Positions 36,068 to 41,879 of a DNA stretch of 64,000 nucleotides are shown piece by piece; position 1 is the stretch's first letter; each line of letters starts with the position of its first letter. Below the pieces are notes generated by a model. The model was not told the origin of the DNA and ran no database searches. It saw nothing but the letters and a program-made list of their open reading frames with translations. This DNA is from Jonesia quinghaiensis DSM 15701. GTDB taxonomy: Bacteria; Actinomycetota; Actinomycetes; Actinomycetales; Cellulomonadaceae. The position numbers and the translations under genes were made by a program. The DNA is taken from assembly GCF_000423205.1 (NCBI RefSeq), contig NZ_AUHN01000005.1, forward strand, positions 62,001 through 126,000, read 5' to 3'.

Positions 36068-36433
36068 TCAGCTGAGAGGTGCCCTAACTGGCCATTCCTC
36101 ACCAAGAATGATCTGCAATGCTTGCCCATGAGCGGGGTTGACCGCAATCGGGGCGAGGAGATTCGCAGACGGTCCGTCGACGCCGCTCCCAGGGGTGACA
36201 ATGACATACAGATCGGGGCGTTGCGTACCAAGTTCGGTGAGCGATTCCCCAGGAATTTCGGGGGTGTAGTCCGCGAAGTATGGTGCTGGGTCGAGTAAGA
36301 AAAGACGACGGTCGTGGTCGTCACGGGCGGCAAACAGCATGCCTGACTCGTCCAGTGGTTCAACGGTTACGCCAGTCATTGGCCCAATTCCTGGCAGCGG
36401 TGCCAAGAAGTTCAGTGCTGTGGGTAGTGTCAT
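36068..36433 (-). CDS. fliW: flagellar assembly factor FliW
   Basis: A 121-residue FliW. In Bacillus FliW binds either flagellin or CsrA, and frees flagellin mRNA from CsrA when flagellin is low. Conserved features seen are the N-terminal LPTALNFLAPLPGIG region, the Asp/Glu-rich RRLFLLDPAPYF segment and the ending of the family. It overlaps flgL by four bases and closes the flgN-flgK-flgL-fliW operon. No csrA gene is in the window, although the flagellin leader has CsrA-like sites. Confidence 0.92.
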   Translation of the reverse strand: MTLPTALNFLAPLPGIGPMTGVTVEPLDESGMLFAARDDHDRRLFLLDPAPYFADYTPEIPGESLTELGTQRPDLYVIVTPGSGVDGPSANLLAPIAVNPAHGQALQIILGEEWPVRAPLS

Positions 36434-39560: not shown

Positions 39561-39578
39561 ATGGGGAGTTGTCCCCAT
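39561..39578 (+). promoter_or_regulatory. leader hairpin of the sigma factor gene
   Basis: ATGGGGA and TCCCCAT pair around a GTTG loop. An in-frame TTG (39569) falls in this loop, which supports using the later ATG at 39629 as the start. Confidence 0.4.
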
Positions 39579-39628
39579 TGCTTAATCGAATCGACGGTGA
39601 AGTGGAATTCGTTGTGAAGGTCTTGGAA

Positions 39629-40564
39629 ATGTGTCCTGAAGCCTTCACACTGAAACGCATGAGCACAATGACCGGCGCGCAAGAACGCCTCATCACTGAC
39701 AACCTTCACTTGGTTGGTTACCACGTTAATGACATGCTGATGCGCTTGCCCAGCCATGTCACTCGCGATGAGCTCGCATCTGCCGGTCAATATGCACTCG
39801 TGCAGTCGGCCCGCAACTTCGACCCAACAAGCGGAGTGCCCTTCGCCCGCTTCGCGGCCATCCGTATTAAGGGAGCACTTGTTGACGAGCTGCGCTCAAT
39901 GGACTGGGTGTCACGGGGAGCACGCAAGAAGATCCGCGACCTGAACCAAGTACAGGACCGCCTCACCGCTAGTCTCGGTCGCACCCCCACCCGCGAAGAG
40001 CTCTCAAACGCTCTGGGTGTACCCATCAGTGAGATCGATGACGCTCGCGACCAGGCGGCCACGAAGGTGCTCAGCTTCGAAGGCTACGACGGTGCGCTTG
40101 CTGAAGTTCTCCCCACCCGCGAGGTAGGACCAGAAGCAGCGCTGCTCGCCTCCGAACAAATTGTTTACCTGCGCTCGGCAGTGTCAGCTTTGCCTGAACG
40201 CCTACGCAGCATTGTTGAACAAATCTTCTTTGAAGAACGTTCCGTCACAGAGATCGCCGAGAACCTGGGTGTCACCCAATCCCGCGTATCTCAACTGCGA
40301 GCAGAGGCCATGCTTCTCCTCCGCGATGGAATGAACTCTCACCTGAGCCCAGACCAGGTTCCAAACCCAGAGCGCGCCGGCGGGGTCGTTCACCGCCGCC
40401 GTGAGAAGTACTTCGCAGAAATCGGCGAGAAAGTGCATGCCACTATCGCCGCTTCTAAGGCAGTACAGAGTGTGCGCGCCGCTGAAGTAGCTGTTGTTGA
40501 CGCCGTCAAGGCCATGCAAAACGACAACAACAACGCGGAGTCCACCTTCGCAACCATCGCCTGA
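39629..40564 (+). CDS. fliA: flagellar-type RNA polymerase sigma factor (FliA/WhiG family)
   Basis: An alternative sigma factor of 311 residues. Region 2 is visible (LVGYHVNDMLMRLPSHVTRDELASAGQYALVQSARNFD with FARFAAIRIKGALVDELRSMDW). Region 3 has LGRTPTREELSNALGV. Region 4 HTH has SVTEIAENLGVTQSRVSQLRAEAMLLLRDGM. A C-terminal tail of about 70 residues goes beyond the usual FliA length. ATG 39629 with GAAGG eight bases upstream is preferred; a TTG at 39569 would add 20 residues. It is next to flagellin, so it probably drives the flagellar genes. Confidence 0.9.
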   Translation: MCPEAFTLKRMSTMTGAQERLITDNLHLVGYHVNDMLMRLPSHVTRDELASAGQYALVQSARNFDPTSGVPFARFAAIRIKGALVDELRSMDWVSRGARKKIRDLNQVQDRLTASLGRTPTREELSNALGVPISEIDDARDQAATKVLSFEGYDGALAEVLPTREVGPEAALLASEQIVYLRSAVSALPERLRSIVEQIFFEERSVTEIAENLGVTQSRVSQLRAEAMLLLRDGMNSHLSPDQVPNPERAGGVVHRRREKYFAEIGEKVHATIAASKAVQSVRAAEVAVVDAVKAMQNDNNNAESTFATIA

Positions 40565-40578
40565 CCTGCATTAACAGT

Positions 40579-40627
40579 AGTTTTCGGTAAGGCCTAAAAA
40601 TTTCTCAAAGAAATTCTGACGAAAACT
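40579..40627. repeat. nested inverted repeat between the sigma gene and flagellin
   Basis: Outer arms AGTTTTCG (40579-40586) and CGAAAACT (40620-40627) enclose inner arms AATTTCT (40599-40605) and AGAAATT (40609-40615). It could end sigma gene transcription (there is no T-run) or be an operator next to the flagellin promoter. Confidence 0.6.
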
Positions 40628-40629
40628 CT

Positions 40630-40656
40630 TCATAACCAACCCTGCCAGCCCGATAG
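40630..40656 (+). promoter_or_regulatory. sigma-28-like promoter of flagellin
   Basis: CCCGATAG (40649-40656) fits GCCGATAA at six of eight positions. At the standard 11-base spacing the -35 is TCATAACC, a poor match to TAAAGTTT. The predicted start, near 40663, lies just before the leader hairpin. Confidence 0.5.
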
Positions 40657-40662
40657 GTAGGG

Positions 40663-40718
40663 TAAGCGCCACGGATGGCGCGAACCACAACCGGACCTTT
40701 CAAATCACGGAGGATATC
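40663..40718 (+). promoter_or_regulatory. flagellin mRNA leader with two CsrA-like sites
   Basis: A hairpin GCGCC-ACGGAT-GGCGC (40666-40681) displays ACGGA in its loop. A second ACGGA (40707-40711) overlaps the GGAGGA ribosome site (40709-40714) just before the ATG. One GGA in a loop plus one over the Shine-Dalgarno is the arrangement by which CsrA represses hag in Bacillus. CsrA action here is inferred. Confidence 0.55.
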
Positions 40719-41879
40719 ATGGGTCTCTCGATCAACCAGAACATTGCGGCCACCAACGCGTACCGCAACCTGTCCGTCACTCAGAACGACCTCTCCAAGT
40801 CACTGGAGAAGCTCTCATCTGGGTTCCGCATCAACCGTGCAGCAGACGACGCTGCCGGCCTGGCGATCTCCGAGGGCCTGCGCTCACAGATTGGTGGCCT
40901 GAAGGTTGCAGTTCGCAACGCTCAGGACGGCATCTCCGTGGTGCAGACCGCTGAAGGCGCACTGACCGAGTCACACGCAATCCTGCAACGTATGCGTGAC
41001 CTCTCCGTGCAGTCCTCCAACACCGGTGGTTTGTCAACCGATGCTAAGGACAACATCCAGGCAGAAATGGGTCAGCTCAAGTCAGAGCTTACTCGTATCT
41101 CCGACACCACCCAGTTCAACGGTGCCAAGCTCCTCGACGGTTCCTACAACGGTAAATTCCAAGTAGGCGCCAACGTTGGTGAGTCGATCAACGTCGCCGT
41201 GGGTACTGCAATGAGCGCCAACGGCCTCGGCGTGGATGGTGTGGATGTCACTGCTGGCACCGCAACAACCGCAACAGTTGTTAACGCAGTTGCTGGTACC
41301 GCTGGTACCGTCACCACCTCAGGCACTGCTCTGACAACTGCGGCTGCTTTCGAAGAGCTCAACGGCACCATCACGGTCGGAAGCAAGTCCTTCGACCTCT
41401 CCAGCGTGAAGTACGACGCTGCTGACGATGTTGCTGCACGTACCACCAAGTTGACTGATGCTGTTACTGCTGCTTTTGGTACAGACATCGCCTCAGCAAC
41501 CGTGACCGGCGACCAGCTTGTTGTTACCGGTAACGCTCCTGCTGCTGCTGCAACAGCCAACGAGGTTAACGCTGCCTCAGTGAAGTTCACTGAAGCAACT
41601 GGTGCTGAAGGTGCAATCACCGCAATTGACGCTGCGATCAAGACCGTGTCAACTGTTCGTTCAGACCTCGGTGCGGTCCAGAACCGTTTCGACCACACCA
41701 TCAAGAACCTGAACGTGGCAGTGGAGAACCTCTCAGCTTCTGAGAGCCGTATCCGCGACACCGACATGGCTCAGGAAATGGTCAGCTTCACCCGTGCACA
41801 GATCTTGTCCCAGGCAGGCACCGCAATGCTCGCCCAGGCAAACCAGATCCCACAGGGTGTTCTTTCCCTCCTGCGCTAA
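40719..41879 (+). CDS. fliC: flagellin
   Basis: The filament subunit, 386 residues. The N-terminal D0/D1 (about 1-140: INQNIAATNAYRNL, SSGFRINRAADDAAGLAISEGLRSQIGGL) and C-terminal D1/D0 (about 300-386: ending LAQANQIPQGVLSLLR) are strongly conserved. The middle (about 150-295) is Ala/Thr/Val-rich and variable, and probably surface-exposed. The start has a strong GGAGGA. It is flanked by the sigma gene and fliD. Export depends on the FlhA/FlhB apparatus; FliS probably chaperones it. Confidence 0.98.
   Translation: MGLSINQNIAATNAYRNLSVTQNDLSKSLEKLSSGFRINRAADDAAGLAISEGLRSQIGGLKVAVRNAQDGISVVQTAEGALTESHAILQRMRDLSVQSSNTGGLSTDAKDNIQAEMGQLKSELTRISDTTQFNGAKLLDGSYNGKFQVGANVGESINVAVGTAMSANGLGVDGVDVTAGTATTATVVNAVAGTAGTVTTSGTALTTAAAFEELNGTITVGSKSFDLSSVKYDAADDVAARTTKLTDAVTAAFGTDIASATVTGDQLVVTGNAPAAAATANEVNAASVKFTEATGAEGAITAIDAAIKTVSTVRSDLGAVQNRFDHTIKNLNVAVENLSASESRIRDTDMAQEMVSFTRAQILSQAGTAMLAQANQIPQGVLSLLR

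Follow-up and report, generated by a model that had tools for sequence, protein, structure and literature searches.

A conserved CsrA-type hairpin in the flagellin leader of Jonesia quinghaiensis and other actinobacteria points to CsrA-FliW control of flagellin translation

Two short motifs of the kind bound by CsrA lie between the predicted transcription start and the start codon of a flagellin gene in Jonesia quinghaiensis DSM 15701, and they raise the question of whether flagellin translation in this actinobacterium is governed by CsrA and its antagonist FliW. Control of CsrA by FliW in Actinobacteria was proposed earlier from gene presence (PMC4682653), and a survey of actinobacterial flagella took CsrA and FliW as queries (PMC10746217). 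No title or abstract among the literature matches listed described a CsrA-bound actinobacterial flagellin leader, the subscription literature being largely outside the scope of that search. An earlier note on this DNA had proposed that a FliW-CsrA-flagellin feedback loop operates here. The comparative analysis described below, of the 64,000-nucleotide stretch (the window), the rest of the genome and related genomes, supports this proposal, and from it we infer that the loop operates in cells. The features concerned are collected in Table 1.

Table 1. Features of the flagellin leader and of the genes associated with it, in window coordinates
Feature	Position	Strand	Basis
Putative sigma-28-type -10 element (CCCGATAG)	40649..40656	+	CCGAT at 40650
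Hairpin with CsrA site 1 at predicted 5' end	40666..40681	+	sequence read, RNAfold, covariation
CsrA site 2 (ACGGA), predicted	40707..40711	+	within CACGGAGGA; sequence motif
Shine-Dalgarno GGAGGA, overlapped by site 2	40709..40714	+	sequence read
Flagellin gene, 386 aa	40719..41879	+	PF00669 + PF00700
Sigma-70-family factor just upstream, FliA/WhiG-like by place	39569..40564	+	PF04545, PF04539, PF04542
fliW, 121 aa, predicted CsrA antagonist	36068..36433	-	PF02623, 59.8 bits
csrA	G000:C2:127875 = window coordinate 65875, outside window		PF02599, 81.8 bits

Direct reading of the leader bore out the two motifs described in the earlier note. The leader opens with a hairpin of five pairs (GCGCC, 40666-40670, with GGCGC, 40677-40681) closing the six-base loop ACGGAT (40671-40676), and a second ACGGA overlaps the GGAGGA ribosome site, which ends four bases before the flagellin ATG. 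As sequence motifs, therefore, two CsrA-type sites are present, one of them covering the Shine-Dalgarno sequence, with 36 nt from the GGA of site 1 to that of site 2. The window leader also has the form that defines a high-affinity CsrA/RsmE site, an ANGGAN hexaloop on a stem (PMC7652899). Folding of the leader with RNAfold, which the earlier note had suggested, recovered the hairpin but paired the loop A with the loop U, narrowing the predicted loop to CGGA; the six-base loop is still the conserved form: 61 of the 111 family leaders end it with U and the remaining 50 with C, A or G. Taken alone, the fold was not significant (z = -1.54 for the 56-nt leader, 19 of 200 shuffles being equally stable; z = -0.54 for 98 nt), and the window shows no enrichment of ACGGA, with 123 copies against 131 expected. 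Single-sequence statistics are weak, and the signal for the leader element comes from conservation.

Upstream of the hairpin, CCCGATAG, a putative -10 element by the sigma-28 consensus, ends nine bases before the start of the stem. Its -35 counterpart is indistinct, and no sigma-70-type site was found in 40500-40760. A corresponding element (C/G/T-CGAT) is present in 92 of the 111 family leaders and ends 11-13 nt before the four-pair inner stem in 89 of these 92; in the other 19 leaders the -10 pattern was not found. Because this distance is nearly constant, the hairpin probably lies near the 5' end of the transcript, with a predicted start at ∼40663 and a leader of ∼55 nt. Two other readings of the leader were dropped: a terminator or attenuator, as there is no terminator-like site in 40500-40760, and a known riboregulator, as neither the window leader nor the loci of six relatives matched Rfam at gathering score.

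The earlier note had found fliW ∼4 kb from the leader and no csrA in the window, and both statements are correct: fliW is found there, and a search of the whole genome located csrA 1.9 kb past the window end, adjoining a cheA-like gene. The CsrA product has 111 aa, including a C-terminal extension. The 474-aa ORF that also adjoins csrA (locus L001, 48-1472) has no Pfam match. The FliW product of the window is short and divergent, yet it scores above the Pfam cut-off and distantly matches 5dmb_A, the FliW of the solved FliW-CsrA complex 5dmb (E = 0.00024). Its gene adjoins a flgL-like gene, in this genome between an HDOD gene and flgL. The distance between csrA and fliW is about 30 kb here and 28-39 kb in 22 family genomes selected for carrying both genes on one contig, and the two are often adjacent elsewhere in the class. 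The stoichiometry of the Bacillus system is fixed by genetic architecture and translational coupling (PMC6529632); with 28-39 kb between the two genes, such coupling cannot set the CsrA-FliW ratio in this family.

The three genes also keep company across genomes. Among 200 genomes of the family (Cellulomonadaceae), flagellin matches were found in 101, FliW in 100 and CsrA in 92, as nested sets; none of the 99 genomes without a flagellin match has FliW or CsrA, and the nine with a flagellin match and without CsrA are fragmented assemblies of 170 to 840 contigs. In 296 genomes of the class the numbers are 37 for CsrA, 36 for FliW and 37 for Flagellin_C. The class departures are few: CsrA with neither FliW nor a flagellin match (G304 and G440), FliW without CsrA (G268), FliW together with CsrA but no Flagellin_C match (G207 and G227, the flagellin of the latter being cut at a contig end) and Flagellin_C as the only match of the three (G202, where the match is weak, G222 and G231). 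The leader element is present in G222, an 80% complete genome in which CsrA and FliW were not detected.

Alignment of relatives' leaders, as the earlier note had advised, showed that the hairpin and its loop are conserved and that the stem changes in a compensatory manner. We read 111 leaders, drawn from 92 of the 101 flagellin-matching family genomes; no N-terminal match was listed for the other nine (G036, G052, G058, G105, G124, G142, G146, G156 and G194), in six of which the best match is weak (E 1e-10 to 1e-14) and may therefore be FlgL only. A hairpin with an NGGA hexaloop is present in 111 of 111 leaders, a count that demands three inner pairs (the fourth is unpaired in L093), and the loop carries ANGGA in 110. 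GGA at loop positions 3-5 is invariant, position 1 is A in 110, positions 2 and 6 are variable, and CC/GG forms the closing pairs. Every tandem flagellin copy read has the hairpin; the sole exception to the loop A, with T instead, belongs to the third flagellin of a tandem set of four in one genome (L122, G095) and is also the one leader without a hexaloop hairpin in the strict sense. Hairpins of this strict form were found in 110 of 111 leaders compared with 163 of 11,100 dinucleotide shuffles of the same leaders, and in none of 110 other mechanical ORF upstreams of this genome (ORFs of at least 150 aa; ∼94 kb). Stem pairs three and four vary on both sides (15 cells, 46 distinct family hairpins), giving a covariation score of 0.28 against 0.045 for shuffled alignments, a value reached by 0 of 500 shuffles; 99.5% of cells are paired, a percentage favored by the restriction of the set to distinct sequences with the three inner pairs.

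The second motif, which the earlier note had expected to be conserved with the first, is conserved less strictly. ANGGA stands at the Shine-Dalgarno sequence in 102 of 111 family leaders and is missing in nine, and the GGA-to-GGA spacing ranges from 23 to 42 nt. AAGGAGG complements the anti-Shine-Dalgarno sequence and is a good Shine-Dalgarno in its own right; ANGGA at site 2 is thus partly expected. In a control, GGA occurred in the zone for 41 of 111 mechanical ORFs and was preceded by A two bases earlier in eight of the 41, against the 102 of 111 flagellin leaders, a rough comparison given that the ORFs are uncurated, that the flagellin gene is among the 111 and that the flagellin leaders are mutually related.

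Beyond the family, the strict hairpin was found in 31 of the 33 class genomes in which a flagellin start was found (the 37 Flagellin_C genomes less G202, G231, G263, G268 and G437, which yielded no such start, with G227 added through an RNA-model match). The two without it are G278, which has CsrA and FliW, and G457, whose flagellin-like gene (L257, G457:C19) appears degenerate by eye and has a hairpin with an extra internal loop. At the position of site 2, several class leaders read CCAGGAAGG. Across 28 class hairpins the covariation score is 0.46 compared with 0.14 shuffled, again reached by 0 of 500 shuffles, with 88.6% of cells paired, a figure raised by part-selection for pairing (26 of the 28, all except G278 and G457, have the pairing asked for). 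With a covariance model built without this genus, the window leader was the best match in the genome (E = 0.018; next, 0.19), and a search within the window gave E = 0.00038. The covariance model matched 78 of 296 class genomes at E ≤0.1, mostly weakly. We inspected 30 of these loci, one per genome, judging the flagellin N-terminus by eye: all 20 with E <1e-3 precede flagellin genes, as do L169-L189 and L191 in all, and L190 and L192-L198 (E ≥0.001) do not. Three inspected loci from one family (L174, L179 and L191, from G254, G350 and G414) have an A-A or G-A mismatch at the third stem pair, so that in that family a single mismatch within the hairpin seems to be tolerated.

Among named genomes, the strict hairpin was found in 75 of 78 loci (the best 80 of 293, of which two have the leader cut), or 73 of 78 when L306 and L344, whose matches fall inside the Shine-Dalgarno zone, are discounted. 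It is lacking in L347, L356 and L362, two of which come from Acidimicrobiia or Acidimicrobiales, outside the class of the window. Genera with the leader element include Cellulomonas, Nocardioides, Blastococcus, Modestobacter, Actinoplanes, Planomonospora and Actinokineospora, among others. The predicted leader layout is one that recurs in most flagellated actinobacteria examined, and there is good support for regarding it as a class-wide actinobacterial counterpart of the known CsrA-FliW control of flagellin. The likely RNA target itself has now been found, with covariation, in many named actinobacterial genera, which opens the circuit to direct tests in an actinobacterium.

That the hairpin is merely a 5'-end stabiliser of the mRNA, with GGA in the loop and at the Shine-Dalgarno sequence by coincidence, is very unlikely. 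The near-constant distance to the -10 element in 89 of the 92 leaders with a recognised element, which probably puts the hairpin at the very 5' end, would suit such a role. A stabiliser, however, would need a stem and not a fixed loop, and what is fixed is GGA in the loop, in 111 of 111 leaders, while the stem covaries. In the class the stem is rewritten (e.g. GGGGC/GCCCC, GCAGC/GCAGC and GGCTC/GGGCC) and the ANGGA loop persists; the GCAGC/GCAGC stem with an ACGGAT loop is found in most Blastococcus and Modestobacter leaders read and also in Geodermatophilus and Trujillonella. An even slimmer chance attaches to CsrA binding the leader and activating or protecting the flagellin mRNA without repressing it. 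The position of site 1 near the predicted 5' end would fit, as would the precedent of E. coli flhDC, a CsrA-protected mRNA (by a reference title in PMC7652899), but site 2 overlaps the Shine-Dalgarno sequence in 102 of 111 leaders and the co-occurring FliW is, in Bacillus, an antagonist that relieves repression (PMC7652899). Least probable of all is that a transcription factor of the flagellar cascade uses the element as a DNA operator: in most family leaders the inverted repeat does lie at a near-constant distance downstream of the promoter element, but its half-sites vary in pairs around a fixed, non-palindromic GGA, the opposite of what a dimeric operator would show.

We favor, and consider very likely, a reading in which the leader serves as a translational switch worked by CsrA: a CsrA dimer would bridge the hairpin to the Shine-Dalgarno sequence, and FliW would relieve the repression of flagellin, as in Bacillus subtilis. 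One RNA-binding face of the dimer would grip the 5'-proximal ANGGAN hexaloop of the mRNA, and the other would reach the ANGGA over the Shine-Dalgarno sequence and bar ribosome entry. The invariant GGA, the A at position 1 and the variable positions 2 and 6 match the ANGGAN hexaloop of high-affinity RsmE sites, and the family spacing of 23-42 nt falls within the range over which a CsrA dimer bridges two sites, 10-63 nt apart (PMC7652899). Free FliW would bind CsrA near V51/N55, releasing the mRNA, and cytoplasmic flagellin would in turn bind FliW. With FliW sequestered by cytoplasmic flagellin, we propose, the export of flagellin would turn on its own translation. Given the recurrence of the leader layout among actinobacteria, the same kind of self-limitation as in Bacillus very probably governs flagellin in this bacterium.

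Similar arrangements are known from other bacteria. The Bacillus subtilis hag leader also has two CsrA sites, BS1 (A51-A55) and BS2 (C75-G82) (PMC8523840), one of them over the Shine-Dalgarno sequence (PMC7652899), and shares FliW and the flagellin target; unlike in hag, site 1 here lies close to the predicted 5' terminus, in a leader of ∼55 nt. The fliC leader of Clostridioides difficile likewise has two predicted CsrA sites and FliW control (PMC8523840) but differs in its longer predicted 5'-UTR (91 bp) and in its site sequences. In the glgC leader of E. coli, as in our proposal, a hairpin site tethers a CsrA dimer that bridges to the Shine-Dalgarno sequence; glgC differs in having four CsrA sites and a non-flagellar target (PMC7652899), and its antagonists are the CsrB/C small RNAs, compared with the predicted FliW here.

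The CsrA residues that contact FliW are retained along with FliW. In Campylobacter CsrA, a change of V51 or N55 weakens FliW binding (PMC7829508), and both residues are present in the CsrA of this genome. N55 was found in 75 of 75 CsrAs examined from FliW-bearing genomes (51 of 91 from the family and 24 of 34 others from the class, 30 being the best-scoring and the rest hand-picked), although the genomes are related and the counts hence do not represent independent events. At residue 51, 69 of those CsrAs, all parsed with an arginine required at the place of R44, carry V, I, L or M. N55 was found in none of three CsrAs from genomes without detected FliW, being D in G012, G in G440 and R in G304, and the second CsrA of G486 has R at residue 55. 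Of the CsrAs without N55 in G440, G304 and G486 (second copy; L246, L248 and L260), one has only 60 aa. Eight ORFs neighboring csrA in G440 and G304 were scanned; four have a Pfam match, in every case non-flagellar.

G012 is flagellated, with a flagellin gene and flagellar neighbors, and it has CsrA and a leader that retains both sites. No FliW was found there in a search at E up to 1, and at the place that fliW occupies in the window, between the HDOD gene and flgL, G012 has a 90-base gap (G012:C3, L158, 3624-3713). With D for N55 and no detected FliW, this genome offers a natural experiment on how CsrA contacts FliW. In a further reading, less likely than not, CsrA would be a dedicated, near single-target regulator of flagellin in flagellated actinobacteria, with the leader element and the FliW-contact residue co-evolving with FliW; loss of FliW, as in G012, would then have uncoupled CsrA while the leader was kept, as a FliW-free variant of the circuit.

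A wider CsrA regulon with CC/GG-closed hexaloops was considered and dropped: the pattern SCCANGGANGGS has 21 matches in the genome compared with 33 for a reversed control pattern and is therefore not enriched, other target shapes being outside the pattern. Two of the 21 matches have at least five pairs, the flagellin leader and L375 (G000:C5:131351-131362, minus strand), and of these only the flagellin leader is followed, 25-80 nt on, by a start with a Shine-Dalgarno-like match; no such start was found for L375 within the scanned stretch. L375, an ANGGAN hexaloop hairpin of eight pairs, precedes by ∼70-80 nt a GTG ORF of 401 aa with an FHA-like appearance on visual inspection.
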